Shown: positions 6,604-56,096, numbered from the stretch's first letter. The stretch is 64,000 bases of DNA from Hyaloraphidium curvatum (GCA_025558095.1 JAIVFI010000026.1:496001-560000); one strand, 5' to 3'. Translations and numbers: made by a program. The notes: generated by a model from the sequence alone, not told the origin.

Positions 6604-8119
6604 ATGGACGGGGTGCTCTCGCCGGCGGAGCGCCTGGCGCTGTTCCCGGCCCCGCTGCCCGAGCCGCGGCTGCTGCTCCCGGCCGCCCCCGAGGACGCGA
6701 AAGAGGAGCAGCCCGATTCCGCGCCCCTCGATTCGGCCGCCCTGCTCTCCTCGCTGCCCTCGCCTCTCCGACAACTTACGGCCGCCCAGCTGTTCATGGC
6801 GGCGCGTTACCTTGGCGGCTTCGACCGCGTGATGTCCACGACGTTCGCGCCGTCGACCGCCGTCGCGGCCGGGCTCGCGACGCTGGCGCAGCCGTCGCCG
6901 TTCTCGACAAAGACGCTGGCCGTCGGCATCGCCGGGTGCTGCCTGAGCGCCGCAGTGACCGTGGCGCTCTCCCTCTCGGGCGTCGTGCACCGCGGGCGCT
7001 TCTTCAGGCCCGCACGCGGGGCAGGCGACCTCTCGGGGCACCCGCTGGCCGTGTTTGCGCGGTGGAAGCAGCTGGAATGTTCCGGGAGCGCGGACGGCGA
7101 GGATGCCACGAAGCACCCCCAGACTATGCTAAGGCACGTGGAGCGCGACCCGGACTGCCCGTGCTCGCTCCCGTCGTGCGCGGGCGGGTTCCCGGCGCGC
7201 GCGGGCTGGCTCCGTCTGGCGGACCTCGCCATCCGCATCGGGCTGCTGTATGGCGGCATTGTCTTCATCTGGTTCACGCCCGCGTTCACCCTCGCGTGGT
7301 ACACGTGGTCGCACACCGGCCCCCGCGCTGTTCACGGCCCTGAGCGGTGGGTTCTCCGCGGCTTCGTGGCTCCGCGGCGCCTGGGGCTGACCACATCCGC
7401 CGGCAGTGGTCAGCGGTTTCGTCCTCGTCGTGTGCGTGTCGATCGCCTCGACTTCCTACAGCTTCCCGGCCCTGGAGCTCTCCCGGCGCCTGCAGACCCG
7501 CGCGCTCTCGGACGCCCTGTTGGAGTTCCTCGCACGGAGCGAGCGCGAGCTCGCTTCCTCCACCCAATCGGCAAATCCCCGCCTCCCGGAGCCCTACGAG
7601 CACCTATGCGCGCAGCTCCAGCTCCTCCGCGAATCGCGCTTCCCCAACTTCTCCACCTCCCGCGCCACCATCCTCCTCCATTTCGCCATCCCCTGCATCG
7701 TCATCGTCTCCAACATCGGCGCCGGCTCCTGCGTGCCCCTCTGGCCGGCGCTGATCCTGCTGTACGGCGGCGCGGTCGCGTTCCGCGACCTGCACGCGGT
7801 GGCGGCGAGCAACGGGCAGGCCGAGAGCGCCGCCGCGGTGCTCCGCCAGGGCGCGAGGGAGTCGCGTTCGCTCCTGGCGCGGTACCCTCCCGGCCCCGCG
7901 GCGTCGCGGCTGGCGCACCACGCCGCATTGATGGATTCCCTGGCGACCGCGGGGGGGAGGGCGAGGTGGCTTTGGTTCGAGCCCGGGGCGGGGGCGGCGC
8001 GGGGGGCGGGGGCGGCGCGGGCGGCGGGGCTGGCGGCGTTCACGGTCGCGGTGGGGTTGTGGAGCGTGTTGAGGGCGGGAGGGGTGTACCTGACGCCCGA
8101 GATTGCGTGCTGGGGGTGA
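6604..8119 (+). CDS. polytopic membrane protein, 7TM family member 1
   Basis: This is a predicted 482-residue membrane protein with about seven hydrophobic segments and one of four related loci in this window. Exons are 6604-7346 and about 7414-8119; the donor/acceptor choice (67-bp intron) is the least certain point. Shared family features are an N-terminal acidic/Pro-rich tail, a Cys motif after TM2 (HVERDPDCPCSLPSC), a long amphipathic stretch between TM6 and TM7 containing HHAALMDSL, and a final TM7 (AVGLWSVLRAGGVYLTPEIAC). The TM6-loop-TM7 arrangement resembles the 7TM ion-channel/gustatory-receptor-like superfamily, which is a structural inference only. Function is unknown. A tract rich in GAGAARGAGAAR precedes TM7. 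Confidence 0.7.
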
Positions 8120-8323
8120 CGAGCACGCGGCGCCTCTGACGGAGCTAGGCAAATCTACGGTGCGAGCAATGAACGGGGCCCAAGTGATCAACGGACAATC
8201 GGCAATGGACAGTTTCGGACAAAGAATAGAATCGCAAAGCAAGATAGTGCCGTTTCTACCGGCGACAGTGCTGGGCCTCTTCACCTCCGCTGCCCCCTAT
8301 CGCCAACCGCACCCCGCCCGTCT

Positions 8324-9475
8324 TCACTCCCCCCTGGCGACCCTGAAGCAGCTCCCGAGGAACTCCGCCGCGAACCCGAGCGCCTCCTCCGCGCGCTTCT
8401 TCACCAGCGGGTCGTCGAAGTTGCCGCGGGCCGTGGACCAGCCGTGCCGTACGCTGCACGCGGGGAACGTCAAATGGGCGGGGTCGCGGCCGGGCGTGGG
8501 AAGGCGAAGGACGCACTCGGTGAACACCTTGAGCGGGACGGGGTCGAACTCGAAGGTCTTGGCGCGCGGGATGTGCGCGTTCTTCTTCAGCGCGGCATGG
8601 AACTCGGTCTGTCCCCGGGGTCGGATGGTCAGCAAGGCAGCTTCCTCGCTTGGGATGGCGGACGCACGAAGTCGCCGTCGTCGATCGCGCTCGGCAGCGA
8701 GGCGAGCGGCGTGCGGACGAGCTCGGCTTCCGGGGTCGGCAGCAGGGCGGGGTGGACCCCGACGACGCCGCAGAGGAAGGGGGCAAAGTCCTGGGAGGCC
8801 TTGACGGTGATGTAGCCGCCTGGAGGGGAGTTGGTGGAGGTTTCGGTGATACAGGAGCGCTCGGCGCCCACATGGACTGACCGTAGCAGAAGCCGACTAT
8901 GCCCACGTGCTCGACGCCGCGCTTCTTGAGCCACGCAAACACGTTCTCGAGGTCTTTCTTAACCACGGTGTCGTAGTTCCCTCCGCCGCCAAAGATGTAC
9001 GCGACGAGCTCTGTCCGGGAAGCTGTCGGCCTCCGTTCGCCGTCCTCCCGCGGCGCTCCGACCCACCTGCCATGAGGCTGTTCTTGAGCCCCATCGCGTT
9101 TCTATCCGACGGATCCACCCCGTCCGGAACAGCCGGCTCGTGCGCCCCCGCGCCCCCGAAATCGAACCTCTCGGCCGGGAAGGGCACCCCCCTAAACACG
9201 TCGGGCATGACCGCCACCCTCCCCGACGCCTTCGCCAAAAAATCGCACGCCATCTTGTTCTGCGGCGCGCCGTGTCCCAGGATGTCGTAGATGGCCACGA
9301 TGGCCTCCTTGGTGTTCTCAGCCGAGGGTGGTTCCGCGACGTAGGTGTCCAGGTCGCCCAGGCGCTCCGTGCGGCCCGCGGGGGTGTAGGCGGTGACGGG
9401 GACCACGACGGGGTTTGGGGCCGTCTGGCCATCGCCGGAGCCGCAGCATGCGGCGGGGAGGACCGAGGCAGACAT
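8324..9475 (-). CDS. dienelactone hydrolase family protein
   Basis: This is an alpha/beta hydrolase of the dienelactone hydrolase class, cytosolic with no signal peptide, 303 residues. Five exons read right to left are 9475-9067, 9010-8882, 8819-8668, 8608-8517 and 8453-8324, with introns of 56, 62, 59 and 63 bp. Motifs visible are IYDILGHGAPQNK near the N terminus, the nucleophile elbow GFCYGG (Cys nucleophile, as in true DLH) spanning the second splice site, the GVHPALL segment, the acid region SAIDDGDF, and the catalytic His in VRHGWSTARGNFDDPLVKKRAEEAL. Splicing restores each motif exactly, which supports the model. DLH enzymes hydrolyse dienelactones in aromatic degradation; many fungal paralogs have unknown substrates. 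It is convergent with the 7TM gene. Confidence 0.9.
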
Positions 9476-10155
9476 GTCTCCCACGAGGTGGCGGCGGGCC
9501 GATCGCTGAGAGGTGCTGGAACGCGCATGCAGAGTCTGCCTAAAGGGTCTTGTCTGGTTCTTCTGTGTCATTTGTTTCGTCGAATTCCACCCCATCCACA
9601 CCGGATTCGGCGTTCTTCGCGACGGCATGGTCGGCTTCGTACGAGAGTTCGTACGCTTCGCTCGCGCAGGACCAGCCTAGGTCACAAATGCGTCGGCGGG
9701 CTTCAGGGTTGGGCCACGCAGAGGAACGACTCGTTGGTGGATGCAGGCCTGGCTCCTCAATCACCGCCATCAGCGCAAGCGCGCTGAGTTGCTGCTGCCG
9801 TCCCGCGCACGCACGCCTCGAATCCTGGCCATCCGGCCCAACAAACGATCAAATCCGAAGACCGGCAATACAGAACGCGAGTGGATCGGGAGTGAGCTTA
9901 GCCGCAAGGTCCCTTTGAATGTCTAGTGCAGGCTTACCGCAAGGCACAGGCCCCGTTGCCGATCGATTCGAGTCCCGAAGACGGCCACGGAGGGCTCGTC
10001 GCAGACCCGGATGGCCCATCACAACCACGTGGCATCATCGTACGCGCGGTTCGGAGCGAACAGATGCAAATTCGTTTGCGATCCGAGGTGGCGATTGGAT
10101 CGTGACTGACTTGACTGACTTGGGCTGGTGCCTCCCAACTCCCCCTCGTCCCGCG
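9476..10155. other. intergenic region (divergent promoters)
   Basis: This is the shared upstream region between the dienelactone hydrolase (minus) and the Sel1-SH3-RING gene (plus). Several 60-120-codon open frames exist on both strands, but none shows a motif. It is visibly less GC-rich than the flanking genes, as expected for a promoter region. Confidence 0.5.
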
Positions 10156-12557
10156 ATGGTCTTCGAGAGCGCGCAGCGGTGCTACGAGCTCGGCCTCCGC
10201 GCCGAATCCGGCGATGGCGGGGCCCGCGACCCCGGCCTGGCGCTCAAGTGGTACCGGAAGGCGGCGGACAAGGGCCACGCGCTCGGCCGGCTCGCGCTCG
10301 GGCGTTGCTTCGAACGCGGTGTCGGCACCAACGTGGACGCCGCTGCCGCAGTGGCGCAGTACCGCAGGGCGGCGGGGCAGGGCCTGGCGGAGGCCAAGAT
10401 CGCGCTGGGGCGGTGCCTGGCCGAGGGCACGGGAGTTGAGAGGGACCCCGCCGCGGCCTTTGCGCAGTACCTCGATGCGGCGCGCCAGGGCAGCGCCGAG
10501 GCGCAGGCGCTGGTAGGGATGTGCTATCGGCGCGGGAAGGGAGTGCAGGCCGACGCGGAGCAGGCGGCCAGCTGGTACCGGAGAGCTGAACACCATGGAA
10601 GCGTGATCGCGGCAAACGAGCTGAAGGACATGGAGGCCGAGGCAGCCAGGGAAGCCGAGGCTGCGGTGCAGAAGGCGAGGGACCTCGCCCGCATGGAGGA
10701 GCTCCGCAGGCGGGCCGAGGAGGCCGAGAACGTCGCCCGGGTCGTTGTGCGGCAGCTCAGCATGATCTCGCTTGGCGGGGCGTCCACCCGCAGTAGTATC
10801 CACTACGTGGCGCAGGTAAGTCATCGCGCACCGATTGCTGGTCCCTTGATTGAAGGAGCGCGTTCCAGGCTCGGCCGCCATCCAGCGTCACGCGCTCGGC
10901 CAGCCCCGTCGCGCCGGCTGCCGGCCCCAACGGATGGGAAACCAGCTCCATCTACGACGGCTCCGACGACGGCTACACCGACGAGTCCGGGACCCACTCC
11001 ATCCCACGCGCGGACACGCCGTCCGTTTTCGGGCCCTTCGATTCTCTGGATCGATACCGGTCGTACCGGACCGGCTCCCCCGACGCCCCGATCTCGGACC
11101 CTCGTCGGACGCCCTCCCCCGCCCCTCGACCCGCCTCCTTCACCCCAACCCACCGCGCCGCGTTTTCCTACCCCCCGGCGGACAGCACCGAGCTCGCGCT
11201 GGCGGAAGGCGAGCCGATCGAGGTCATCCGCGGGGGAGACGGCGGCGGCGAGGGGTGGCTGTACGGCCGGGACGCGCGCGGGGCCAGGGGGTGGTTTCCC
11301 GCGGCGTACGTGGAGGAGATCAATGATCCGCCGCCGCCGTCCGACGAGCGCAGCAGGCCCCGGCCGCGGACCGTGGACGAGGTGCTGCGGATCTACGACA
11401 ACAACGAGCTGCGCTTGTTCGGGGCGATCGGACGCGAGCAGAGGGAGCAGCTCCAGGGCATCCTCGATGCTGCGAACCTGCTCGATCTGGATTTGGATGA
11501 CTGCGTCCGGGCCGTGGGGGAGATGGTGCGGGCGGGGAGGTTCGACGGCGAGGCGGACGTCTCGGACGTGCTGGACTGGATGCAGTCTGGGGCAGCAGCC
11601 GCGGCAGCGAGCCACGGGCCCCCGCGCACCCTGTCGCCCCAGACCGTGGAGAACCCCCCTCCTCCTCCGCGGAGCCCGCCCATGCTGGTCCGGCGGGACA
11701 CCTTCGGATCGATCGACGGGCTGGACCACATTGCGCGGCACGCCGCGTGGGCCGGAGGCACCGAGCGCCCGCCTCCGCCGCCTCTCTTGGGCCAGCTTCT
11801 ACGACCTTTCGAGGACAAGGGGCTGCATTCCCCCCGGATCGGTCAGATCCGCCGTATTTTGCACGAGGCGCTCGCGTACGGGCACAACGCCTTCCACTGC
11901 GCCGAGGCCGTGGAGGCGATGCTTGGGAACGGGAGCTTCTCGGACCTGACCGGGCTGCAGCAGGTCCTGGAGTGGCTGCACACCGGGCAGGGATCCGTGG
12001 GCGGGGCCGGGCGGGGGCCCGCCGCGCCGGATCGTCCGGCTTCGCCCGCGCCTTCATCCGCAAGCTCCGTGCACTTGGCGATGCCGGAACCGTTTGAACG
12101 ATTCATCAATCGGAGCGACGAACTCGATGACTACCGGCTCCTCCGAATCGCTGACATTCTGGCGCGAGCGGAATCGCTGGACTTCGACGTGGCCGGCCTC
12201 GCGGACGCGATTGAAAGGATGCTGGACTGCGGCAGGTTCCGTGACGACACGACGCTGCAGGACGTCAGCATGTTCCAGCAGTTTGGCGAGGGAGCCGCCC
12301 GCGCGCCCGAGGCCTCGCTCCGGCCCCCGTCTCCTCCCATTCGCCCCTCGTCTGCGCAGTCCGCCGCCTCGCGGACGACGCAGGCCGAGCCCCGAACCTG
12401 CGTCATATGCATCTCCGAGGAGCCAGTGGCGGCGGCGCTGCCGTGTGGGCATCTGATCCTGTGCGAGGGGTGCAGGGAGGAGGGCGCGATAGGGTGCGGG
12501 GACAGTTGCCCGCTGTGCCGCAGGAGGGTGGACGGGGTGTTCAGGATATGGGTGTGA
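10156..12557 (+). CDS. Sel1-repeat / SH3 / RING-finger protein
   Basis: This is a 782-residue multidomain protein from two exons, 10156-10815 and 10869-12557, split by a clear GTAAGT...CAG intron. Order: four Sel1-like repeats (about residues 1-150, e.g. AVAQYRRAAGQGLAEAKIALG), a charged coiled coil (150-205), a Ser/Pro linker, an SH3 domain (about 320-375: LALAEGEPIEVI ... GWLYGRD ... GWFPAAYVEEI), three divergent copies of a roughly 70-residue helical module (about 387-460, 529-600, 624-700), and a C-terminal RING finger (CVIC ... LPCGHLILCEGC ... CPLCRRRV). The RING suggests E3 ubiquitin ligase activity. Sel1 and SH3 parts would bind partners, perhaps as in Chs4/Skt5-like or ERAD adaptors, but no substrate can be inferred. 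The cysteines needed for zinc binding are present. Confidence 0.88.
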
Positions 12558-12782
12558 CGATTGCGGGTGGTTCTTCCCCAGCTGGAGAGTGTACACTCTG
12601 GAGAGTCAATGACGTCAGTTCTAGGCACGAGGCATCAAGCGCCCCGATCGCAGTTTGATACTTTGTCGCAGCGGAGTGCCGAACAGAGCTCTTTCTTCAA
12701 CATCCTCGTAGGAAGGGCAGGAAAGTTCCTGAGAACCCTCGCCGGCTGCCGCCGCCTGCACCAGGTCTCTCGAATATTCTCC

Positions 12783-14345: not shown

Positions 14346-14553
14346 GTAAAGCGTTGCGGCCCGGGACGATGGCTAGGGCGGCGGCTCAGGCCTGGCTTTT
14401 GTCGAGGAGATGCTGATGCTGAGGAGACATTAGGGATGTAGTCCACTGAAGTGGTTTCAAGCTGCAGTCAGCAACCTGCTTCAAGCTGTGATCGCATTGC
14501 GTTCCGCAGGGTCGGCGTTCTGCCACGTTCGACAGCTCGCCGCCCTCTCCGCC

Positions 14554-17080
14554 ATGGACGGCCCGCCGCCGTACTCCCGCGCGCCGCCGACGTCCGCGGC
14601 GCGCACGCCTTCTCCGGGCCGCGCGGCCGCGGCGCGCCCCGCCGTGCACCCCGCGCGGGCGCGCGCAAAGACGGCGGTGCAGGACGCGATCAACGCGGAC
14701 TTCAACGGGGAATACGAGAGGGCGCAGCGGCTATACAAGGAGGCGCTGGACGGCTTCGCCGCCGAGGCAAACGGTGGATGCCCCGGGCGGCCCTCCGAGA
14801 CGCTCTAACCGCGACCCGTGCTCCCCCTCCCTCCTATCCGCCCATTCATTCGATTTAATCCGCCGCCTAATCTGGCCCGACGTTCAGCCCCCGAGACGCC
14901 CGGCAACGTGCGCGCCTATCTCCGCGGCAAGATCGACGAGTATTCGGCCCGCGCCGCGAAGCTCTCGCGCTTCCTCGACGCCGAACGGGCCGCGCAGGCA
15001 CAGGGCCCCGACGCGTCGTTCTCCGTGCCGCCGTTCGCGCCCGCCACTCCCGTGCCGGCCCCGGCCCCGGCGCCGGTGGTCGCGGGAGGATGGGGCGCCG
15101 AGGGGCTGCCGGACGCGAGCCTGCTGTCGCCAAAGAGGGAGACCAATGGCGGGATGGCGCCGCCCCCCGTGCCAGGGGTGGTCGTCACGGCCCCGCCGCC
15201 CATGGGATCGGCGGTACCGACGCCGCCGACCGCCCTGGCCCCGCCCATGGGACCGGCCCCCCCGACGGCGGGCCCGACGCCGCGGCGGACCCCGTTCCCT
15301 GCCGCGCCGGCGCCGGTCCCGGCGTTCGTGCCGGGGCCGCCGGCGCCGGTGCCGGAAAAAGCGGGCACGGCGTTCGCGCCTGAAATTGCTGCGGCGCCTC
15401 AGGTCGCGAGGAGGCGCAAGGGGTCGTGGATCGGGTTCTGCTGCAAGCTTGCCTTCCTGGTCGTGCTGCTTTGGGCGGTGAGCACTCCGTTGGCGGCGCG
15501 ATCGGCGGCGAGCTGACCCCCGCCGTTCCAGGCGCTACTGGGGGCGATGCTTTTGTGGCCGCACCAGCTGCAGCCGTACCTGGTGTTCCTCCACTGGGCC
15601 GACTTCCCGCCGCGGTTCATGCTCGACATGGAGAACCCCGAGGACTACCTCAAGCTCAGATGTGCGTTGTGGTCCCCTGCCCTGCTTCTTTCGCTCACGA
15701 CCCGTTCCCCGACCAGACGGCACCGTCCTCCCCGTCCGCATCCAATCCTCCGACCCTGATCCCCCCGTCGTCACATCGCAGTACCCGCCCCCGGGACCCC
15801 CCGTCTCCCTCCAAGCCTGGCACTTCCTCCCCCTCGCCTCGCCCCCCCTCCTGCGCCCCGACGGCCTCTCCCGCGACCCCGCCGCCTTCCGCGCAGCCCT
15901 CGGCCCCGCGTCCAGGGCGTTCCTCTACCTGCACGGCAATGCCGGCAACATCGGCTCTCCCAACCGCGCCGCGACCTACGCCCTCCTCCGCTCCGCGGAT
16001 CCCGGGGCGCATGTGCTGGCGCTCGAATACCGCGGCTTCGGCGCGTCGGACCGCGTGCAGCCCACGGAGGACGGCCTCGTGAGGGACGCAGCGGCGGGGT
16101 ACGGGTACCTCCTCTCCCTCGGCGTGCCCCCCTCGCAGATCGTCGTCGTCGGGCACTCCCTCGGCTCGGGGGTCGCCGCGCGGCTCTGCGCGGAGGAAGC
16201 GGTGCCGCCGCCCAGGGGGCTGGTCCTCCTCGCTCCCTACACTTCCGTCCCCGATGCCGCGCTAGACTACGGCACGCTGCCGCTGCTCAAGGCCATCAAA
16301 CCGCTGCTCTCGGAGCAGCAGAGGGAGTGGGTCAAAGAGAAGGTCGCGGTGCGGTTCGACACGCGGTCCATCATCGCCGGGGTGGCGGACAGGGTGCCCG
16401 TGCTCGCGGTGCACGGCGCCCGGGACGGGGACGTGCCCGCGTACCACTCCCTGGAGCTGTTCAACGCGACCTTCCTCCCGTCCCCCGGTTCCTCCCGCGA
16501 TCCCGAGTGGGAGGTGGATCATTTGCCGGGGGGCAGGGACAGGGTGCTCAAGACCTCGACGCGGCGGCCCGGCGGCGGGGGGATGTGGCTTCTCGAGGTC
16601 GGCGGCGCGCGGCACGGGGATCTGCAGGGGTGGGAAATCGTGAGGGAGGTGCTCGCCGGGTGGGTCGGCGGGCTGGAGAGGGGGGTGATGCCCGCGGGCG
16701 GGAGGGCGGCGGCGGCGCGGAGGGAGATGGAGGGGAGGAAGACGATCGAGGGGGGAGACGGGGCGACGGAGGTCGAGGCGCCGCCGCCGGAGCCGGAGCC
16801 GGAGGCGACCGTGGTGGCGGAGGAGACGCGGGCGCCCGAGGTGCCGGTGCCTGAGCAGCAGCAGGAGGAGGAGCATGCGGGGCAGGGGGAGGAGCCGAGC
16901 CCGCCTGAGGCGGAGGCGCCGGAGCCGGAACCGGAGCCCGCGCCCGCGGAGCCCGTGGAGACGGGGGTGCCCGAGGTGCCTGTTCCCGAGGGGGAGCAGG
17001 TGCCCGAAGGCGGGGAGGGGCAGGAGTGGGAGGGTGAGGAGATGATGGAGGAGTTCGTGCCCGCGAGGGAGGAGCTCTAG
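14554..17080 (+). CDS. MIT-domain / ABHD12-type alpha/beta hydrolase fusion
   Basis: This is a 767-residue protein from exons 14554-14773, 14888-15477, 15532-15661 and 15717-17080, all phases matching. Residues about 38-115 form a MIT domain (AVQDAINADFNGEYERAQRLY; then VRAYLRGKIDEYSARAAKL), which in Vps4 and spastin binds ESCRT-III tails. A Pro-rich linker follows, then a membrane segment across the second intron (FCCKLAFLVVLLWA). After that comes an ABHD12/ABHD13-like serine hydrolase: HGNAGNIG oxyanion region, nucleophile elbow GHSLGSG (Ser about 460), acid in HGARDGD (about 550), His in ARHGD (about 611). The tail is Pro/Glu-rich. ABHD12 enzymes are integral membrane lyso-phospholipid or monoacylglycerol lipases. 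The intron joining the halves has GTGAGC, GCTGACC and CCAG and continues the frame exactly, so I treat this as one gene. The alternative is two genes, the first ending at 15516. Confidence 0.8.
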
Positions 17081-22668: not shown

Positions 22669-25249
22669 ATGGAGGAGGCCCGCGTCCTGCGCACGGTGTC
22701 ATGGTGGGCCGCGACGGACACCCGTTCTAGCGGCCCCGGACTCATTCTTGGTGCCCTCATGCGACGCCGCCCTCCGCCGCGAAACCACAGCGAGGCATGC
22801 TCAATCGTGAAATCGGCAAGTGCCTCGGGATGCCGGCGATATGCGGGGAGACTGACGCCGGACCGCACTGCAGCGCTGCGTGAGGCCCTCGGAGGGCGAG
22901 CCGTGCGAGCGCTGCCAGAGGCTGCGCAAGGTCTGCCGGCTCCAGGACACGACCTTGACGCGGCGCAAGCGCGAGGAATTGCGCAAGGCGGAGCGGGCGC
23001 GGAATGAGGACGGCGAGAAGTCGCCGCCCGGCTCAAGGGCCAAGCGGCGTTCGTCGGGGACACCCGTCCGCTCCAGCTCGGAGGCGTCGGTAGACAACGC
23101 CTCCGCCTTGGCCGTCATGATGGACTACGAGTGCCCGTTCAAGGAAGGGCAAGGTGCCCCGGCCCTCACGGCGAGCCCCGGCTACAGCCCAACAGACTCG
23201 GCGGATGGCCGCGACAACTACTTCTTTTCCCTTCCGGCCCGGCGCCAATCGAGTGCGGCGACGCTGCTGCTTTCGCCGGGACTGCCCCAATTCTCCAACT
23301 CGATAACGCTGTCCAGTACTCTGTCCAGCGGGGATCAGATTGTTCCTTTTGGGGCATTGCCGGACGCCATCGTCGCTGCATCTTCGAACATCCTTCAACC
23401 GCCTTCTCCGCTGGACCTGTACCTCGGTGAGGCTTGTGACGTTGTGCGTGGTTGCTGAAGCTGAAGAAGGGTTGGCCTCCTTGTCCCAGACATGTTGCCG
23501 TCCTGCCTCGCAGCATAGTGGGTGCTCCCATTGGCCATTTCGGGCCGTCACTGATCTGCCCCCCCTTTAGCTTCGACTACTACAACAAGCGCAATCCCAT
23601 TGTGCACCGCGCCACCTTCCTCCGCGCCTTTGTCGACGCCGGCAGCCCCCGTATCTACGGCCCCAACGCTCCCCGCGCCCTGCTCTTCGCCCTCGCCGCC
23701 GCCGGCTCCATCAACGCCGAGTTCCCTGGGCTCCAGGACGCCCAGCGCGTCCGCGCCGGCCGCGAATTCGCCAACCGCGCGCGCGAGCTCGTCCTCGCCG
23801 GGTACTTTGACCGCCCCGCCTACGCGCGCTCCATCACGGGCCTCGAGGCCGTGCTGGTGCTCCTCGTGCTCTCCGGCTACTATGTCCCGCAGGGGCTGGC
23901 GGCGCGGATGTTCCCCATGCTGCAGCGGATGGTCGCGCTGCTGGCCGAGGTGTGCGTGGACGGGCCAGGGGCGACCGTCGGCGGAGCGGACGGGGATCCC
24001 CCCGCGGATGCGACGGAATGGGTGCTCCGGGAAATGAAGACGCGTGCTTTCGTGTTCGTTTCCACGACGGACTGCCTGCAGGCCCCGACGGCGGGAAGGC
24101 TCCCTCTATACCCTTACTTTCGACATCCCATCGTGTTCCCGGCGCACGATGGATTCTACGAGATGGACGACGAGGAAGAGGCATTTGCTCTTCTGCACAG
24201 CTCCCCGGACAGGCCCGCGCGGGCGCGGTTCGACGGCTTCAGGGAGCTGCAGCACGCCCACATCGCGGCGGCGCGGCGGGCGGAGCTGGTCCGCAGGCTC
24301 GTCTCCCCCGCGCTCGAGGGCCGCGCCTTCGTCGGGACGCTCTTTTTCTTCCAGGCCTTCATCGCCGGCATCAAGGCCCGGCAGCGGCTGCTGGCCGCCG
24401 AGAACAAGCTCCGCGTGCTGCAGCTCGCCCTGCAGGACCCTGCTCTGGACACGCCCCCCGAGGCGCTGTACCGCCGCCTCGAGTTGCAGATCACCGCGCT
24501 TTATGCGGATGCGTGGTCGGCCATACCTTCCGTGGGGATCAGCCTGGGGGCGGGCAACCCGTGGCCCTTCCTCCGAGCATGGCCGTCCTTCTTCTCCGCG
24601 CGGGGCCATGCGCACTCCTTCCTCGCCGTCGCCATCACCCTATCCAACTATCCCCTGGAGGGTTACCTCTCCGGGGACCCCTCCTCAGCCCCGGAAGCCT
24701 TCTTCGCCTCCCCGTACTTCCTCTCCGTTCTGCGCGCGGCGTCGGTCGCCGTCGGGCTCATGCGGGGGCAGCTCGCCGACGATCCGGGGCTGCGGTGGGC
24801 CCACGTGGTGGAGCTCGCGACGGCGCTGAGGACGGGGTACGTCCTGCTCGGGGCGGCGAGGGCGGTGGGCGTGCGGGGCGCGCACACGGACCCGCTCGGG
24901 TACGCGGAGGACATCAAGACGGTGGTGAGGGTGATGGACAGCCTGGGGAGGGCGTTCAAGCCGCTCGGTGGGTGCTTCCGCGCGGATGGATCGCCGGAGA
25001 TTTGGCTCATCCTTGGATTCGGCAGGGACGAGGTTCGCGCGCGACTTTCGGCGCGCGGTGCTGGCCGCCGGGATCGATCCCGATGCCCCACCGCCTGCGG
25101 AGGAGGAGGACGACGAGCAGGTGCTGCAGCCGATGCCGGAACCGGGGGCGGCGCAGCATCCCGTCGCTCCGGGTGACGTGACGGTGCCCGCGGCGTTCGC
25201 GAGGATGGCGATGAGCGGCAGCCAGGCGTTCAAGCCGTGGGTCAAGTAG
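22669..25249 (+). CDS. Zn2Cys6 transcription factor, tandem copy A
   Basis: This is a fungal binuclear-zinc-cluster regulator of 753 residues from six exons: 22669-22703, 22791-22815, 22874-23426, 23490-23517, 23571-24967 and 25026-25249. Splicing the first three exons gives C-x2-C-x6-C-x8-C-x2-C-x6-C (SCEACSIVKSRC, then EPCERCQRLRKVC). Neither early exon encodes a cluster alone: the first Cys codon is split by intron 1. Intron 2 starts GCAAGT, a GC-AG intron. A basic linker (TRRKREELRKAER) follows. Exon 5 holds the fungal transcription-factor (middle homology) domain, starting FDYYNKRNPIVHRATFLRAF and including REFANRARELVLAGYF. The short C-terminal exon is acidic and ends AFKPWVK. It is nuclear by inference; the target is unknown. 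The gene downstream is a tandem duplicate. Confidence 0.88.
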
Positions 25250-25950: not shown

Positions 25951-28619
25951 ATGGATCGAGCGCGGGTGGCGCGGACGGTCAGCTGGTAATGCCCGACCGG
26001 CGTGCCAACTTTGTCCCTGCTGACCGGCCCCGCGCCTCCCTGCGATGGACCTACAGCGAGGCGTGCTCAGTCGTGAAGGCGGTGCGTTTTGTCGCGCGGC
26101 TTCCGGGGTGCAGTTTCAGTCGGGTTGCTGACCCGGTGCCCCCACCCCCAGCGATGTGTGCGGGCATCCGAAGGGGAGCCCTGCGAGAGATGCACGCGAT
26201 TACGACGTGCTTGCCGCGTGCAGGATACAACATTGACGCGGCGGAAGCGCGAGGAGCTGCGGAGGGCCGAGCGGTCGCAGAAGGACCAGGGCGAGGAGGC
26301 CTCAAGCGGCGGCGGCCACGGCTCCAGCCTCGGATCGGGCTTCCGCCCGCGCTCGCAGTCGGCCTCTTCCCAATCTTCGGGCTCCGTCGATGGTATTGTG
26401 TCGGGATCACCTCCGGACGCGTCGCCCGCCTCGGGGCCGTCGCAGCGGGCCTCGCCTGAGGCCGCGGTGGCCTTGGCCAAACCCAGGAGTCGCAGCCCGC
26501 GGAGGCCGATCGTGAAGACCGAGCCTCCAGATGAGAAGCACACGTACTACTTCATCATGCCGGGCGCGCGCTCGGGACCTGCCGCTGCTGAGCTGCTAGT
26601 GCCGGCATACGCACCGCCGGCGGACGGCCCCGCCTCGTTGACTATTTCGATAGGGGATCGCTCCGGAACCTTTCTGAGCGAGGCTTCGCACGCATCGTCA
26701 AACACTCTATCCAGCGCGGGCTTCAGTGCGGACCTCTCGACGTTCCAGCTGGGCTCTCCTGCGCAGTTCATTTTGCCGGAGGTGTCCCCCGTGCCGCGGG
26801 CACTCAACTCCTTCGACAACACCTCTGGTATTGGCCTTATGCCCCTCTATGTATCCCAGGCACTGATAGTCCCCCATTCAGATGTCCTTCCAGCGTGCAT
26901 TGTCGCCTAGTGAGTGACCGATGACCGAGTCTTGGTCAAGTTCTGACCCTGCACCCAGCTTCGACTACTACAACAAGCGCAACCCCCTCATTCACCGCGG
27001 CACCTTCCTCCGCGCGTTCACACCCCCCGGTAGCCCCCGTATCTACGGCCCCAACCCTCCTCTCGCGCTCTTATTTGCCGTCGCCGCCGCTGGCTCCGGC
27101 CAGGCCGAAGTTCCCGGCCTTTCCGACACGCAGCGCATACGTGCCGGCCGGGAATTTGCCAACCGTGCGCGGGAGCTCGTCCTTTCCGGGTACTTTGACC
27201 GCCCGCCCGGGATGCGCGCCATGACGGACCTCGAAACCATGCTGGTGCTCCTCGTGCTCTCGGGCTACTTTGTCCCTGCGGGCCTGGCGGCGCATATGTT
27301 CCCCATGCAGCAGCGCATGGTCGCGTTGCTCGCCGAGGTGTGCGTGGACGGACCCGAGGCGACCGTCGCGGGGGCGGACGACGATCCGGCCGACGCGACG
27401 GAATGGGTGCTCAGGGAGATGAAGACGCGCGCGTTCGCCTTCATCTCCGTGATGGACTGCATGGCGGCGCCCACGGCCGGCAGGCAGCCGCTGTACCCGT
27501 ATTTCCGGCACCCCATACGGTTCCCGGCGCACGACGGGTACTACGAGATGGAAGACGAGGAGCTGGCTTTCCAGATGCTGCACCGCTCCCCGGACGGGCC
27601 CGCGCCGCCGCGGTTCGACTCGTACAGGGAGCTCTACTCATCGCGGACACCCCCCGCGCGGCGCGCCGAGCTCATCCGGACCTTCCTCGCGCCCTCGTTC
27701 GAGGGCCGCGCCTTCGTGGGCAACCTCCTGCTGATGCACGCCTTCATGTGCACCATCAAGGTCCGCCAGCGTGCGCTGATAAGGGACCACGGGATCGGGG
27801 TGATGCGGCTCGCGTTGCAAGACCGAAGCCTGGACACGCCGCCAGAGGCCGCGTACCGCAGGCTGGAGGAGCACGTGGCGGCACTGTACGGGGACATCTG
27901 GGCGGCGATACCGGGGTTCGGCGCCGCGCTGGGGGCCGGCGATCCCGGGCCGTTTCTGCGGACGTGGCCATCGGTGTTTTCGGCAAAGGGCCACGCGCAC
28001 TCCTTCCTCGCCACCTGCGTGGCGTTCACCGCCTTTCCGCTGGAGAGGTACGTGCTCGGGGACCCATCCGCCGCGCCGGACGCCTTTTTTGCCTCGGAGC
28101 ACTTCCTCGCCGTGCTGGGGGGCGCCTCCGTCGCCGTGGGGCTGCTGCGGGGGCAGCTCGCGGACGATCCAGGGATGAGGTGGGCCCCCGTGGCCGAGAT
28201 GGCGGCGGTGCTCAGGGCGGGGTACGTGCTGCTGGGAGCGGCCAGGGCGGCGGGGGTGAAGGGGGGTGGGGGGGACCCGCTGGGTTACGCCGAGGACCTC
28301 AAAGTCGTGGCGCGGGCGATGGACAGCCTGGGGAGGGCGTTCAGGCCGCTGGGTGGGTGTTCCATCGCCGCTGCCGACCCGGATCGCGCTAACCCTTCCA
28401 CGATCGGCAGGCACCCGCCTCGCGCGCGACTTCCGCCGCCTGGTTCTCGCTGTCGGGATCGACCCCGACGCGCCCGCGCCGCCCGAGGAGGACGACGAGC
28501 CGGTGCTGGAACCGATGCCGGTGCAGCAGCTCCCCGCGGTACCGGAGTCGAGCGCGCCGGCCGCGTTCGCGAGGATGGCGATGAGCGGGGGGGACACGTT
28601 CAAACCGTGGGTCAAGTAG
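25951..28619 (+). CDS. Zn2Cys6 transcription factor, tandem copy B
   Basis: This is a tandem paralog of the gene at 22669, with 788 residues and the same six-exon structure: 25951-25985, 26057-26081, 26152-26827, 26882-26909, 26959-28352 and 28411-28619. Exons 1, 2 and 4 have exactly the same lengths (35, 25 and 28 nt) as copy A, and the last intron is 58 bp in both. The spliced zinc cluster is SCEACSVVKARC then EPCERCTRLRRAC. Intron 2 begins GTGCGT where copy A has GCAAGT. The fungal TF domain starts FDYYNKRNPLIHRGTFLRAF. The linker after the zinc cluster is longer and more divergent than the TF domain. It probably binds DNA as a dimer, as relatives do. Function is unknown. Confidence 0.88.
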
Positions 28620-29480
28620 GGCACTTGGCTGTAGTTGGCAATGGACGACGACTCCGCCCTGGTTGGCTCTCGGCTTGATGGTAGCACAAGTCTCCTTGCA
28701 TTGTGACTTTGGGGCGAGCGTGCTGGGTGCGTGAAGTTGATTGCGGGCGCACGTCACCGATCGTTACTCCGCCGTCCCAGCAGGCGAAATGCCGAGGACG
28801 GGCTCTGTGTGCCGGGCTTCTGCGGTGTCAGGAATTCCCGTTGGGGGACACTTTTCGCGTCACCACTACGCCTGCGAGCGGGGTTCCGAAAGACGGAGCA
28901 GCTGCGCTGGAGCTGGCCGGCATTCGTTTCAGCCTGCCCTGACAGGCTTCCCTCGACATGCCGGCGATTTGCGGGCGGGCTCCGGCCAGGCCAGCCAGGC
29001 ACACTTCCCGGGGCCGCGGCGCGGTCGCCGCTCCGGCAAGGCGCCTGGCCGGCGGGCTGTGCGCTTCAGCCGGGCTCGGCCGGACCCCGACGGCCACCGA
29101 CCGGCAGTCGTGGGGCAAAGCACGAAGTCCTCCGTGCCCGTGCCGAGCCCTGCTTTGCCTGGACCGAACTTCGACGCCCCGTCCCGGCGCTCTCACCTGC
29201 CAGGATGCCGTCGCCGGCAATGCGGAGCCTGGCGGCTAAAGGTGGTGTGCCTTCGGCACAGCTGGCCGCTCTTTCGAAGGCCGCCTCGTTGGCCCAGGGT
29301 GCATCCCGCGGGACCACCGCCTTCAGACGTGTTGTTCGAACAATGGCCCGCCTGCTCGCGGGGCGTTGGTGTGTCTTGACCACAGTTGGGGGCGGCATCG
29401 GACGTCGGGCGGCCTGGATGCGTCCGGGATCGGAGAGTCGGTGGCCGATGAGCTCACCGCAAAACACCGCACCCAGCGGC
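28620..29480. other. intergenic region
   Basis: This is about 860 bp of GC-rich sequence before the double-zinc-cluster gene. The downstream coding frame is open through it, but it has no regulator-like content before ATG 29448/29481. I treat it as promoter or unassigned sequence. Confidence 0.4.
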
Positions 29481-45559: not shown

Positions 45560-46085
45560 GAGGGTCTCCGTCCATAGGAACGTTGTGCTGCCACGTCGCC
45601 AGACCTTGAACAAAAGTCCATGGCCCTGGCCCTCGTGGCCAACGATGTCCTCGACGGTGTACTCCTGCTTGTTCCCAAGCACGTTGTCGTCCTCGATCTC
45701 CTCCTCGAACTCGTTCACAGGTTCCGAGAGATCGAGCTCTTCACCGGGGGCGAGCTTCGGGGCGCGTGCGTTCCACGAGCGCGTGTTGAAAGTGGCCGAC
45801 TCTCAAGGTTGGTGGCGCGCCAGCCGATCTACATGCACGTTAGTAGCGTGGTCGGTCTCGTAGACGTGCCTGCACTTCCAGCGATGCGGTAGGGGCCAAG
45901 ATAGCCAGAGAGGGACTTGCTCGGCCCGCCCTTTGCGAGCGCTCTGGTCCCCAAATGAGCACGAGATCGCCGGGGCGGAAGGTAATCGGGAGCTGGGTTG
46001 CGTTGGCCTTGGCGTTCCGAGTCTCCACCGCTGCGGCCATCTTCTCGGCCACCAGACCATCATAGGCCGCCCGAAGTTGATCGCA
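45560..46085 (-). mobile_element. decayed Ty3/gypsy (chromovirus-type) polyprotein fragment
   Basis: On the minus strand the distal end of a retrotransposon polyprotein can be read across at least two frames. First is an integrase C-terminal strand, LPITFRPGDLVLIWGPE, preceded by an Ala/Lys-rich helix (AEKMAAAVETRNAKAN). Then, after a frame change, a linker leads to a chromodomain-like start, QEYTVEDIVGHEGQGHG followed by KVWRRGSTTFLWTE. Chromoviruses have this integrase-chromodomain order. No reverse transcriptase, LTR or intact frame is present here, so this is a relic. Confidence 0.5.
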
Positions 46086-48732: not shown

Positions 48733-49083
48733 GTGAGGCTCCGCGCAGCGGGGCAGAGCATGTGGGAAGAGGCGGGGGTAAGCCGGGTCGCGGTCCGAGG
48801 GATGCTGTGCGGGCGACCCTGCGCCTAATAGGAGCGATCGCTTAAGCATCCGAGGCGTTCAAGTCTCTGTCCGAGGCGACGTGTCGGATGGCCATCCAAG
48901 GCTGAGCAGGGGAACTTGCAAGTAAGATTGTCGAAGACCATGGTTAGCCGTCCAGACCGTCAGACCGCACTTGAGGGTCGAAATGGCTCGAGACGTTGGA
49001 GAGCAGCAAACTGGAAAGACCTTGCCCCGCACCTCCTTGCTGGGCAGCGAGTGGCCACCTCGTGCGCATCTCTAAGTGACCTA
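48733..49083. other. intergenic region
   Basis: This stretch lies downstream of the ZIP transporter. It has no gene-like content. Confidence 0.45.
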
Positions 49084-50978: not shown

Positions 50979-51093
50979 GTCGCTAGGGCTGCGCCGGTGG
51001 TGCGGGCCGCGATGACCGAGATGGCCTTCTCAGTCCTGTTGAAAGAAGAGTTGTGCGAAGGTTCGGAAGAGCCGGCCACGCGTGCCACGGCAA

Positions 51094-51963
51094 TCAAGCC
51101 AACGGCTCGCGGAACACTTCTGCAAAGGGCAAGTAGTTGTTCGGTCCGTACCCGGCGTGGAAGACGGGAAACACGACGACGTCGAGGTGATCCGCTTTCG
51201 TGAGCTCCTCACGGTAGATTCGCGCCACCTCCTCGGCCGGGTTCATGAAGGCGCCGCAGCCGAACGCCCCCAGGCTGGCGTGGCGGATGCCCTTGGCGCG
51301 GAGCGTGGAGATCTGCGCCCGGATCCTGCGGCGGCACTCGTCCGGATCGAACGCCTTCCCTCCCCGCAGGTCGTCCGCCGCCGAACGGAGCTCGTAGAAC
51401 GAAAAGACGTCGTCGTCGGCGAGCCAAGTGTACCCCAAATCGGCCGCAGCCCTGTCCTCGGGCCCTCGCACGCAGATCCGCGGCTCTGTGTCGAGGTAAA
51501 CCTCCCCGTCCCCGCCGCTGATCAACCAAGTCATCTCCCCCGTGTAGAACCCATTGTCAACCATCTCGGACGCGTCGAGAGCCAAGTGGCAATCTGTGCG
51601 CCGGAAGATGTTCTCTTCTTGAGCAACCATTCCTTCAAGGTATCCCCCGCCTGGGTGGTACGCGTTTGCCATGTTCAGGACCGCGAAGCGCGCGCCGTGC
51701 TCCTTCGTGGCGCGGAGCGCAGCGACGCCCCAGTCTTCCTGCGTCACTTGTACGATGGGAGGGCCCGGCCGAGGAGGATCAGGGCCCCCGCGGGCTCGCG
51801 CCCAGCGCGCCAGGTTGGCCTCAGCAAGGGCGCGGAAGTGGTCGCGTCGGGCGGCCAGGGCGGCGACAGTCTCGCGGAGGACGGCCCGGCGGCGTGCAAA
51901 ATCGGGGCGCGAGTACGGGAAGAGGGAGGGGTCGCCTTCATCGGGGATGGGAGGGCCGGGCAT
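51094..51963 (-). CDS. microbial-type PARG (DUF2263/TIGR02452) protein
   Basis: This is a 289-residue single-exon protein of the microbial-type poly(ADP-ribose) glycohydrolase family with a macro-domain fold. Key motifs are VLNMANAYHPGGGYLEG followed directly by MVAQEENIFRRT (the PGGG and QEE catalytic region), then VYLDTEPRICVRG, the C-terminal LGAFGCGAFMNPAEEVARIY, and VVFPVFHAGYGPNNYLPF. The N-terminal helix region (RRRAVLRETVAALAARRDHF) is also typical. The predicted activity is removal of ADP-ribose from proteins or nucleic acids; the partner ADP-ribosyltransferase is not in the window. The start at 51963 leaves 52 bp to the start of the divergent 7TM gene, so the two probably share a promoter. 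Confidence 0.9.
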   Translation of the reverse strand: MPGPPIPDEGDPSLFPYSRPDFARRRAVLRETVAALAARRDHFRALAEANLARWARARGGPDPPRPGPPIVQVTQEDWGVAALRATKEHGARFAVLNMANAYHPGGGYLEGMVAQEENIFRRTDCHLALDASEMVDNGFYTGEMTWLISGGDGEVYLDTEPRICVRGPEDRAAADLGYTWLADDDVFSFYELRSAADDLRGGKAFDPDECRRRIRAQISTLRAKGIRHASLGAFGCGAFMNPAEEVARIYREELTKADHLDVVVFPVFHAGYGPNNYLPFAEVFREPLA

Positions 51964-52015
51964 TACAGGCGAGGTGGACGGGCAGCGCACTTCTTCCACA
52001 ACCGAAACCACTGCG

Positions 52016-53428
52016 ATGGACGCCGCCCCTCCCTTGCGCCTCTCTGTCCCGGAACAATGCTCCCTTTTTCCGGCCGAAGCGGACGGCCAGGGCGCGGTTG
52101 CGCCGAAGGACGACGGCGAAGGCGGCGGAAGAGACGCCAACCTCGACACGGCCGCCCTCATTGCGGGCCTCGAACAGGACCCGTTCCTGCGGTTCACCGC
52201 CCGGGTGCACCTTGCGCTGGCCGTCTACGCGCGGTGGAGTGGGGTGGTGCTGGCCACCTGCGGGGGGCTCGATACCATCTCCACCGTCGCAGTCTGGTCC
52301 TTCAACGGGATCACCTGCACGTTCAGCACCCGCCATATGGCCGCCTACACTGTCGCCGTCGCGCTGTGGGCTGCTAGCCTTATTGTGCAAGGTGCTTTGG
52401 CCAGACTGGCCACAATAAGCTCCTTCGTTGGGGAACCACAGGCCTCCGCCCACCCGTTGGCGGTGCTCGTGCGGTGGAGGCACCTGGTCGCGGACGGCTC
52501 AGCCCTCGTCGCGCATGTGCCCGGTGACAAAGGCTGCGCGTGTCCCCGGGCGGAGTGCGCTGGCTCCCTGCCGAAGCAGGCGGCGTTCTTGCGGGCACTG
52601 GCCCCGATTGTTCCCTTGGCATTGAACATCCTTGGGTCGCTGTTCCTTTTCTGGACTCTGGCAGTCACCTTTGCACCCCTCCTGTGGGGTAGCGCGGCGT
52701 GGACCGCCTACTTCGTGGCTTGCCTCTCCTTCATAATCATCATTCATAACGTCCCCATGCACATAATCTTGGTCTGCAACACCCCCAGCACGGCGCTGCT
52801 CCGACTTCAGGGTCGTCTCCGCCACAGGGCTGTCTCGCTCGCCCTCGGGGGCGCCATCTCCCGACTCGAGGGCTGCGTGGCGGACGGATCCACGCTGGTC
52901 GTTCCGGCCGACGAACCCTACGTCTCTCTGCATTTTGCGCTCGCCAAGGCCTGGCCCTCGGAGCTTGCACACATGTCGGCTGGCCGAGCAGGAGTGATCG
53001 CTCATCTTTGCGTCCTGGCCGTGGTTGGGGTGATCACGGCGTCCGCCTCGTCCTGCATTCCCCTCTGGATCTTGTTCGTGATGCTCCTCATCCTTGCAGT
53101 TTTCGTGCAGGAAATGTTCAGCATCGCGGCCGCCAACGCCGAGATCGACCGCATCGCCGCGCTGTACCGCTCCTCCCGCGCCCGCATCCTCGTCGCCATC
53201 GCGCGACACCCGCCTCCCGCCGTCGAACGCGCGCTTCGGAACCACGCAGCGCTGCTGGAAGTCTTCGAACGCACCGAGGAGATGCAGGGTGCCTTCCTGG
53301 GTTTCAGGGTGCGGTACTCGGTCGTCCGCGGCTTCCTCGCAACGATGCTGACGATCGCGGTGGGCTTGTGGTCGCTGCTGCGCGGCGCCGGAGTGAGCTT
53401 TACGGCGGAGACGGTGTGCCCTGGATAA
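52016..53428 (+). CDS. polytopic membrane protein, 7TM family member 3
   Basis: This is an intact single-exon, 470-residue member and the clearest of the family. N-terminal tail: acidic, then LAVYARWSGVVLATCGG (TM1). Next: MAAYTVAVALWAASLIVQGA (TM2), the Cys motif HVPGDKGCACPRAEC, ILGSLFLFWTLAVTF (TM3), AYFVACLSFIIIIHN (TM4), the TM5 region LAVVGVITASASSCIPLW, LFVMLLILAVFVQEMFS (TM6), a roughly 75-residue helical loop with NHAALLEVFERTEEM, then GAFLGFRVRYSVVRGFL into TM7 (ATMLTIAVGLWSLLRG) and the end TAETVCPG. Seven hydrophobic segments, an even distribution and a conserved TM6-loop-TM7 core are consistent with a channel or receptor fold, but function is unknown. The last 299 bp (53105-53403) occur inverted at 54819-55117. 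Confidence 0.78.
   Translation: MDAAPPLRLSVPEQCSLFPAEADGQGAVAPKDDGEGGGRDANLDTAALIAGLEQDPFLRFTARVHLALAVYARWSGVVLATCGGLDTISTVAVWSFNGITCTFSTRHMAAYTVAVALWAASLIVQGALARLATISSFVGEPQASAHPLAVLVRWRHLVADGSALVAHVPGDKGCACPRAECAGSLPKQAAFLRALAPIVPLALNILGSLFLFWTLAVTFAPLLWGSAAWTAYFVACLSFIIIIHNVPMHIILVCNTPSTALLRLQGRLRHRAVSLALGGAISRLEGCVADGSTLVVPADEPYVSLHFALAKAWPSELAHMSAGRAGVIAHLCVLAVVGVITASASSCIPLWILFVMLLILAVFVQEMFSIAAANAEIDRIAALYRSSRARILVAIARHPPPAVERALRNHAALLEVFERTEEMQGAFLGFRVRYSVVRGFLATMLTIAVGLWSLLRGAGVSFTAETVCPG
53105..53403. repeat. inverted repeat arm 1 (299 bp, inside 7TM member 3)
   Basis: This arm encodes VQEMFSIAAANAEIDRIAAL through GAGVSFT and reads identical by eye to the reverse complement of 54819-55117. 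The flanking coding sequence diverges sharply. Confidence 0.85.
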
Positions 53429-53545
53429 ACATTTAGTCGTAGTCGTGCAAGTATGTTGGCCGGTTCGAACGATTCGAGTGTTCGATGGGGCTTCAGAGTT
53501 TCGGGCCGAGGGCAGGGGACCGCCGACTCCATCCACCGCACCACC

Positions 53546-54272
53546 ATGGCCTCCCCGGCCGAACAAACCCTTTTCCTGCTGGCCGACGATATCAACAAAG
53601 GTGCCAAGCCCCTCTTGCGCGGCCCCGGTTGCGGGGCCTGACCTGCCGTGGCGCTGGCTGCCCGCCGCACCACGTCCCGGCGGCTGTGCCAGGCAACCTC
53701 CAGCAAGCCCTCTCCCGCTCCGTGGACGGCGACGGGATCAACGCCAAGGGGACGGGACTGAGCTCCATGTTCAGGCAAGAGGAGTACAGCGGTGCGGACT
53801 GCACGCGCGTTGGCCACGTCAGCGCGATGGCGCGTGCTGACAAGGCAATGCTGCGACGTGCACCGCACAGGGCGGACGGACGTCGAATCCTTCCTTCAAG
53901 GTCCATCTCTCCCATCTGTTTCGCCGTGCCGACCTCACGGAGCCCCCCGGCCCAGGCCTGATCAACCAGCAGGCTTCGATCGCCGCGGACCCCACCACCA
54001 TCCGCCGCGACGGCGACACCTTCCGCGCTCAGGTGACCGTGCAGCAGGACTTCACCCGCCGGTCCGATTCGTTGCTTCTGGACGGGCAGAGGGGGGCCCT
54101 GGAGGCGGGTGGACCGGCGCGGGGTGGTGATTGCTGTTGATTGAGCGGATTCCTTGACGTGCAGGTAAAGATGGAAGGGGATAAGATCAGGAGCATCGCA
54201 TACGTGCCGGACGAGGAGACCAAGCCGATGCTGCACGGTGGGTTGGGCCAGCCGATCGGTGGGAACGGTTGA
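53546..54272 (+). CDS. small protein, possible NTF2-like (SnoaL-like) fold
   Basis: Gene model is tentative. Exon 1 (53546-53600) starts MASPAEQTLFLLADDINK. Exon 2 (53693-53817) gives GNLQQALSRSVDGDGINAK and SSMFRQEEYS. Exon 3 (from 53871) gives NPSFKVHLSHLFRRADL, RRDGDTFRAQVTVQQDF and RRSDSLLLDGQ. The end (about 54165-54272) reads VKMEGDKIRSIAYVPDEE. Alternating beta-strand-like blocks ending in a DGKI-type strand recall NTF2/SnoaL-like proteins, but no signature proves it. I could not find a donor that joins exon 3 to the last block in frame. A first intron of 92 bp and a second of 53 bp are supported by splice motifs. Confidence 0.4.
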
Positions 54273-54793
54273 AGGCACCACTCACCTAATAGATGCGCAC
54301 ATCTTGACGCACAGTAATCAGGTCACGAATCCAGGAGACGAACAAGCAGCTTCGGCAGTCGATCGAGGATTTCGAAGCGGGGAAGAAGGGGGAGGTGCCT
54401 GGTTCTGGCTGAGGCGTGTCTAAGCGGAACAGGGATACTTCGTCTATTGAATGACAAGCCCACCAAGGACGTCATCCACGGCGTCCTTAGCTTCTGTTTC
54501 CACGTCCACGGCTGTCCAGTTTCTCCTTCGCCGCTGCTCGTCCGGGTCTCAACCAGCGGGGCGACACGTCTCAAAATCCTGCCCTCTGCCTGGCTGGTCG
54601 CCCGCCGGCTTCACGGTCTGACAGACTTTGGCTCTTGGCTCGGCATCCCGCGGCGGACTAGGGCGCAGAGATCCGGAGAACGGCATTCGAGTACCGGTGC
54701 CCCGCGCCGGCATTTTGCGGCTATCCGTGCCTAGACGATGGGATCTCCGTTATCGCACAGTCCATCAACGAGGCCAGAGACCACAGTGGACAT
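54273..54793. other. intergenic region
   Basis: This is a convergent region between the NTF2-like gene and the 3' end of the 7TM pseudogene. No gene was recognised, though additional 3' exons of the preceding gene cannot be excluded. Confidence 0.4.
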
Positions 54794-56096
54794 CTATTCT
54801 GGCTGCTGCGTCTCAGCAGTAAAGCTCACTCCGGCGCCGCGCAGCAGCGACCACAAGCCCACCGCGATCGTCAGCATCGTTGCGAGGAAGCCGCGGACGA
54901 CCGAGTACCGCACCCTGAAACCCAGGAAGGCACCCTGCATCTCCTCGGTGCGTTCGAAGACTTCCAGCAGCGCTGCGTGGTTCCGAAGCGCGCGTTCGAC
55001 GGCGGGAGGCGGGTGTCGCGCGATGGCGACGAGGATGCGGGCGCGGGAGGAGCGGTACAGCGCGGCGATGCGGTCGATCTCGGCGTTGGCGGCCGCGATG
55101 CTGAACATTTCCTGCACCAGGATGGCGAGGATGCACAGGCAGAGGAACACGATCCACAGGGGAACGCACGAGGAGGCGGAGGCAGCGATCACACTGTTCA
55201 GGACGAACACGCACAGGATGACGACCAGACTTGCGCGGCCGGCCGACATGTACGTCAGCTCTGAGGCCCATGCGCTGGCCAGGGAGAAATGCAGCGGGAC
55301 GTAGGACTCATCCGCGGGCAGGGCAGGGGCGGATCCGTCCGCCGCGCAGGCCTTGAGCCGCGAGATGGCACCGCCCAACATCAGATCAACGGCCCGGTAG
55401 CGGAGACGACCCTGCAGCCGGAGCAGCACCGTACTGAGAAGGGGAGCGAAAGTGACCGCCAGCGTCCAGAAAAGAAAGAGGAGTGCGAGGACCTCCAACG
55501 CAAAGGGCCCTATCGGAGCGAGTGCGCGCAAGACCCCGCCTGCTGAGGAAGAGACCCGGAGCAGGAGACGAGCGGCCAGGGGCAGAGTTTGTCGTCTGGC
55601 ACGTGTGGAACAAGGGCTGACGAATACGAAATCAGGCGCCGCCAACGCACGAGCACGGCCATTGGGTGGGCATCAGCCTTTGGTTCAGTGACGTTTGCGC
55701 CCATTGTGGCCAGCATGCCGTACAACCCCAAGGCGATGGCGGAGCAAGACCATAGAACGGCGGTGGTCCTTTACGCGGCCATGTGGCGGGTGCTGAAGGT
55801 GCCCATGATTCCGATACCAGACTGCGGCGGTGGGCACGGTCCCGAGCGCCGCGCTGACGGCGAGCCGCGCGCCGTTCCACCGCGCAAAGCCGGCCAGCGC
55901 AAGGTGGATCCGAGTGACGAACCGCAGGAAACCGTCCTGTTCCAGCCCGGCAAGCAGCGCCCGCGAGTCGAAGGGCGCGTCTCCCGCGGCCCCTTCCCCG
56001 TCGTCCTTGGCCGCCTCTGCCACCGTGCCGCTCTCGTCGCCGAGAAAAAGGGCATGCCTTTCGGCCGGAGTAGGCGGAATGGCGGGGAGGCCTCCA
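54794..56096 (-). pseudogene. 7TM family pseudogene (member 4)
   Basis: This is a degenerate copy of the gene at 52016, read right to left. It starts MEASPPFRLL (compare MDAAPPLRLS) but is shifted by one base within about 12 codons. After a second frame change the N-terminal half continues with LLAGLEQDGFLRFVTRIHL. The TM2 region FSTRHMAA is followed by TAA (complement at 55771-55773) where the intact gene has TAC. A third block carries AHPMAVLVRWRRL and the Cys-motif region HVPDDKLCPWPLVSC. A final 283-codon open block (to 54794) lacks about 38 residues around TM4 (TFAPLL joins directly to STVLLRLQGRL). Its last part is identical at nucleotide level to the intact copy, suggesting recent gene conversion or a late inverted duplication. 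Confidence 0.82.
54819..55117. repeat. inverted repeat arm 2 (299 bp, inside 7TM pseudogene)
   Basis: This arm is the reverse complement of 53105-53403 with no difference seen by eye. The spacer between arms is about 1.4 kb and contains the NTF2-like gene. Confidence 0.85.

Follow-up and report, generated by a model that had tools for sequence, protein, structure and literature searches.

A very large family of seven-transmembrane proteins in the fungus Hyaloraphidium curvatum with a predicted fold like that of insect taste and smell channels

Insect smell and taste rest on seven-transmembrane ion channels (7TMICs), and to our knowledge large repertoires of these channels occur only in animals. 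The 7TMIC superfamily is extremely divergent, with identity reported down to 8%, and outside insects the motif that marks the seventh transmembrane segment (TM7) is conserved partly or not at all (PMC9998090). In flagellated fungi, the chytrid proteins SpunGRL1 and SpalGRL1 of Spizellomyces are candidate 7TMICs with the topology of gustatory receptor-like proteins (GRLs) and a weak TM7 motif (PMC7746228). These two, one gene in each of two species, are the only fungal GRLs in the literature covered here; in fungi other than chytrids, screens by structure detected no GRLs (PMC9998090). Here we analyze a 64,000-nt stretch of Hyaloraphidium curvatum DNA (JAIVFI010000026.1:496001-560000, hereafter the window), part of a 31.9-Mb assembly in 55 contigs. 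The window carries four loci of a very large, lineage-specific family of seven-transmembrane proteins whose N-terminus is predicted to be intracellular. Judged by its modeled fold, this family is most likely a divergent branch of the superfamily that takes in the insect odorant and gustatory receptors (Or/Gr), animal GRLs, plant DUF3537 and PHTF.

The window holds two intact genes and two broken copies of the family. The features discussed below, in window positions, are:

52016 to 53428, plus strand: P0001, an intact single-exon member of 470 amino acids (open reading frame and translation), with seven transmembrane segments, an H-x6-CxC-x4-C loop and the invariant C347 and C468
52514 to 52560, plus strand: codons of H167, C174, C176 and C181 of P0001, a possible Zn-binding H-x6-CxC-x4-C motif in the predicted intracellular TM2-TM3 loop
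12783 to 14345, plus strand: P0002, an intact single-exon member of 520 amino acids (open reading frame and translation; profile match E 1e-114)
6604 to 8119, plus strand: a disrupted member that reads in frame 1 as far as about 7311 and resumes in frame 2 at about 7358
54809 to 56096, minus strand: the 54794 locus, a pseudogene copy of the 52016 gene with TM4 deleted, two frameshifts and stops
53113 to 53410, plus strand, matching about 54820-55120, minus strand: a tract best explained by gene conversion (sliding identity)

A first-pass annotation, made from the sequence alone, had grouped these four loci as relatives, and this grouping is borne out. Run on the window, a profile of paralogs from other parts of the genome recovered the 52016 locus (E 5e-180), the 12783 locus, the 54794 locus (3e-90 plus two fragments) and the 6604 locus (3e-54 and 7e-44 in its two frames), with no convincing fifth locus. 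The four loci are one family, far beyond chance. P0001 and P0002 are about 22-26% identical. The annotation had rightly called the 54794 locus a pseudogene, whose strand is corrected here to minus; the second Cys of its loop is replaced by Trp. The 6604 locus does belong to the family but is not intact as had been supposed, since a stop and a frameshift fall inside the TM4 region and a degenerate stretch lies ahead of TM7. Its nearest paralog is 41%, then 48-52%, identical, and the locus is a probable pseudogene. For the 52016 gene, the nearest paralog (79% identity) lies 378 bp past the end of the window, and the ratio of nonsynonymous to synonymous substitution rates (dN/dS) for this pair is 0.28. 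Approximately 300 bp of the 52016 gene are 100% identical to the 3′ end of the inverted pseudogene, while identity just upstream is about 55-75%; given this sharp edge, recent gene conversion is the best explanation of the tract.

The annotation had also suggested a search for further copies in the genome, and the four window loci proved to be a small part of a much larger set. Whole-genome protein searches with six members as queries, after merging of places, gave at least 223 distinct related loci on 41 of the 55 contigs, a count that includes broken copies. This is a lower bound, because the last query still added six loci and at most 90 of 570-724 candidates were scored per search. At an earlier stage of the count, 27 neighboring pairs lay less than 5 kb apart, many of them oppositely oriented. 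Members are mostly 450-530 amino acids long, and median identity among 67 of them is 28%. The closest intact pairs have dN/dS values of 0.28-0.40 and are under purifying selection, which means that many copies are maintained. At one other place in the genome (G000:C40:55324-56899, the L042 region), family members are broken into several adjacent frames, so some are not single-exon genes, and introns may occur in a subgroup.

The host genome encodes fungal chitin-synthase N-terminal domains, which identifies it as fungal, and it contains a strong match to the ciliary gene PACRG, which suggests a ciliated stage and hence a zoosporic fungus. On these gene matches, the fungus H. curvatum probably passes through a ciliated stage. 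A search for Radial_spoke_3 found no match in this genome, but was equally silent in control genomes and is therefore uninformative, and IFT57 gave only an uninformative match under the cut-off.

The features that had first drawn attention to these proteins hold across the family. Family-average hydropathy peaks and both structural models (see below) agree on seven transmembrane segments. The N-terminus and loops 2-3, 4-5 and 6-7 have median lengths of 79, 64, 71 and 61 residues and carry about 30 Lys and Arg, whereas loops 1-2, 3-4 and 5-6 and the C-terminal tail measure 9, 5, 3 and 14 residues and carry 1.6. By the positive-inside rule this asymmetry predicts an intracellular N-terminus, the opposite of a G protein-coupled receptor (GPCR), and predicted intracellular loops that are much longer than the extracellular ones (64, 71 and 61 against 9, 5 and 3 residues). 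Among 75 full-length members, the Cys-rich loop noted after TM2 is nearly invariant (H167 and C174 in 100%, C176 and C181 in 99%); the His of the "HAA" helix between TM6 and TM7, H410, is present in 89%, and the entry into TM7 is conserved as had been described (G429 99%, V432 88%, R438 99%). Further invariant or near-invariant residues are C347 in the three-residue turn between TM5 and TM6, N374 after TM6, T446 near TM7 and C468 in the C-terminal tail. Of the transmembrane segments, TM7 varies least (mean entropy 1.66) and TM1 most (3.09). We suggest that a metal ion, which could be zinc, is probably bound inside the cell by the H/CxC/C loop. The predicted topology puts both C347 and C468 on the extracellular side, where they probably form a putative disulfide, which could sit at the mouth of a pore.

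To compare folds, we used AlphaFold2 models built from window sequences alone (7 for P0001, 5 for P0002). In the P0001 model, TM4 (227-254) continues into a helix at 256-290, TM5 spans 301-343 and TM6 350-396, followed by a separate helix at 401-423 (7a), a short hairpin and the final membrane helix at 434-457 (7b). Judged by its helix boundaries, the P0002 model repeats this pattern of long intracellular TM4-TM6 extensions and a TM7 split into 7a and 7b, and in both models the C-terminal half has a per-residue confidence (pLDDT) of about 60-93. Foldseek against the PDB placed BmGr9 first for both models with probability 1.00 (8vc2_A for P0001), and ranks 1-5 for P0002 were all Gr9 or Gr43a (probability 0.94-1.00). 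With VIA-align, ranks 1-7 for P0001 were all insect Or/Gr (Z 10.8-12.1 over 289-302 residues, model span 47-458), while the Or/Gr rows for P0002 had Z 8.9-11.3 over 288-331 residues, with Orco 6c70 at 9.8. Insect Or/Gr channels were the only near-full-length matches for both models. For orientation, published Dali Z-scores against Orco are 9-25 for known unicellular GRLs and at most 4.0 for rhodopsin, Frizzled, AdipoR and other membrane controls (PMC9998090). Among the P0001 Foldseek matches, GPCRs and other seven-transmembrane folds reached a probability of at most 0.18 and a TM-score of at most 0.20. A GPCR reading of the family was rejected on the charge-predicted N-terminus, the lack of a GPCR match in Pfam and these low Foldseek rows.

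Sequence searches gave no homolog. Pfam, queried with individual members and with a set of 67, returned no family match, and PDB sequence searches (phmmer and profile) returned none either, the best chance match being a bacterial regulator at E 0.024. A search of the whole genome with the Pfam profiles DUF3537 and 7tm_7 also gave no match; since control genomes likewise gave none, the comparison is uninformative. No relatives of P0001 were confirmed among viral and prokaryotic contigs. The first-pass annotation had proposed an Or/Gr- or GRL-like family, and had named a different helix arrangement, or homology to another family, as what would overturn that proposal. The fold comparison returned Or/Gr, and Pfam and the PDB gave no other family, so the interpretation is supported at the level of the modeled fold. 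The features by which GRLs have been recognized (PMC7746228) are also found here, namely topology, loop asymmetry, length (470 and 520 residues against about 350-500) and no other homology. Together, the topology and full-chain fold agree with the superfamily, but the insect Or/Gr profiles and TM7 motif are absent, and we therefore file the family as a candidate divergent 7TMIC branch and not as insect Or/Gr. The fold itself is fairly well supported by the two models, and we consider 7TMIC fold and membership highly probable.

If the family has this fold, known members suggest how it might work. By analogy, four subunits would assemble through an intracellular anchor in which helix 7a joins the extensions of TM4, TM5 and TM6, and TM7b, the most conserved membrane segment, would line a central pore. 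Small molecules may bind the variable portion of the bundle, TM1-TM6, and binding would then open the pore to cations. Paralogs with different ligands could thus serve chemosensation, for example by zoospores finding substrate. Given membership in the superfamily, these proteins are quite probably ion channels, and if they are channels a chemosensory role is probable; taken together, membership and a channel-type mechanism have a somewhat better than even chance of both being right. The size of the family and the contrast between a conserved TM7 and a variable TM1 fit a receptor repertoire. More tentatively, at somewhat less than even chances, we propose that these more than 200 loci are an independent, insect-sized fungal repertoire of chemoreceptors, built as ligand-gated 7TMIC channels that have a metal-binding intracellular loop and a pore-mouth disulfide.

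Several results weigh against this interpretation. Mean pLDDT is 57.6 for P0001 and 53.6 for P0002, the predicted TM-scores (pTM) are 0.49 and 0.47, and both models are weakest in TM1-TM4. Measured with VIA-align on these low-confidence models, Z-scores to Orco 6c70_A are 8.7 and 9.8, under the published Dali cut of 10, and those to other Or/Gr range up to 12.1. No Foldseek E-value was below 0.001, Foldseek TM-scores were only 0.2-0.38, and unrelated helical proteins (syntaxin/Sso, MukF, STAT) reached Z 10-12, in their case over no more than the C-terminal half. The Or/Gr families 7tm_6 and 7tm_7 of Pfam matched 0 of 67 members, DUF3537 (PF12056) matched none of the members searched, and the insect TM7 motif TYhhhhhQF is absent, with the family consensus TxxTxAVGLWSxLRG keeping only the Thr. 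One alternative is that an unrelated fungal family with seven transmembrane segments and an intracellular N-terminus has converged on this shape, and that AlphaFold2, given a thin alignment, was drawn toward the Or/Gr fold. The low pLDDT of both models would fit such convergence, as would the failure of sequence profiles to connect the family with any Or/Gr chain in the PDB, and mutual information across 75 paralogs (effective number of sequences, 67) gave mostly implausible pairs and was too noisy to confirm contacts. A missing sequence link is expected in a superfamily where identity is reported to fall to 8% (PMC9998090). Against convergence, two highly diverged proteins arrived at the same top family, other seven-transmembrane folds scored poorly and the topology agrees as well, leaving convergence distinctly improbable.

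Another possibility is that the proteins are indeed 7TMICs but not chemoreceptors, and instead act as expanded channels, scramblases or scaffolds, intracellular or at the wall, comparable to DUF3537 and PHTF. No chemosensory role has been demonstrated for relatives outside insects (PMC9998090), and the intracellular H/CxC/C loop has no Or/Gr counterpart found in this analysis. A family of this size, with its low median identity, variable TM1 and conserved TM7, nevertheless looks like receptors and not like housekeeping proteins, and we regard such a role as unlikely, less so than convergence. Dispersal over 41 contigs and the presence of broken copies invite the thought that a mobile element carried the genes along as cargo and multiplied them without their being kept as receptors. 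Paralog flanks, however, hold no common repeat beyond matches due to the same locus or to continuation of the gene, the copies are old, and close pairs are under purifying selection, which makes cargo very improbable. A fungal family of this size with this fold would mean that the superfamily became a large receptor set more than once, and if its members are ligand-gated chemoreceptors, ionotropic chemosensation exists at repertoire scale outside animals. The family would also provide a molecular candidate for chemical recognition by fungi, perhaps by their zoospores, and work on structure and pores could draw on hundreds of natural variants of a minimal 7TMIC. In the literature we found no report of a large fungal set, with incomplete coverage, so an earlier description is possible.

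Directly upstream of the 52016 gene, in divergent orientation, a gene at 51097-52000 (minus strand) encodes a microbial-type PARG catalytic domain (PF10021, E 1.4e-15). By domain search, the gene at 10158-12557 (plus) has Sel1 repeats, an SH3 domain and a C-terminal RING finger, with an apparent junction over an intron of about 55 nt near 10816, judged by eye. An alpha/beta hydrolase gene lies at 14558-17080 (plus); its product is proline-rich at the N-terminus and ends in an acidic tail rich in E and P. Adjacent open reading frames at 23440-25176 and 26918-28678 (plus) contain fungal-specific transcription factor domains (PF04082), with E-values of 6.5e-5, just under the cut-off, and 2.4e-5, respectively. 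A very long open frame at 56270-59302 (minus) is rich in acidic and low-complexity sequence.

Of the known systems, the insect Or/Gr channels (BmGr9, 8vc2; Gr43a, 8zdz and 8x84; MhOR5, 7lic; Orco, 6c70) are the best structural matches, over about 290-330 residues. The fungal family has in common with them seven transmembrane segments, a predicted intracellular N-terminus, long intracellular TM4-TM6 helices, the 7a/7b split, a conserved TM7 and a large, divergent repertoire. It differs in having no detectable sequence similarity, no TYhhhhhQF motif and a fungal host, as well as in its invariant intracellular H/CxC/C loop and an invariant Cys pair in the third extracellular loop and C-terminal tail. 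We know of neither a metal-binding intracellular loop nor a pore-mouth disulfide in Or/Gr. Plant DUF3537 and animal PHTF belong to the same proposed superfamily, were recognized by structure and not by sequence, and have long intracellular loops (PMC9998090, PMC7746228), but they are small families, and the fungal family has no Pfam DUF3537 match. The Spizellomyces GRLs, compared here by description and not by sequence, are single copy per species (PMC7746228), against at least 223 loci in H. curvatum.

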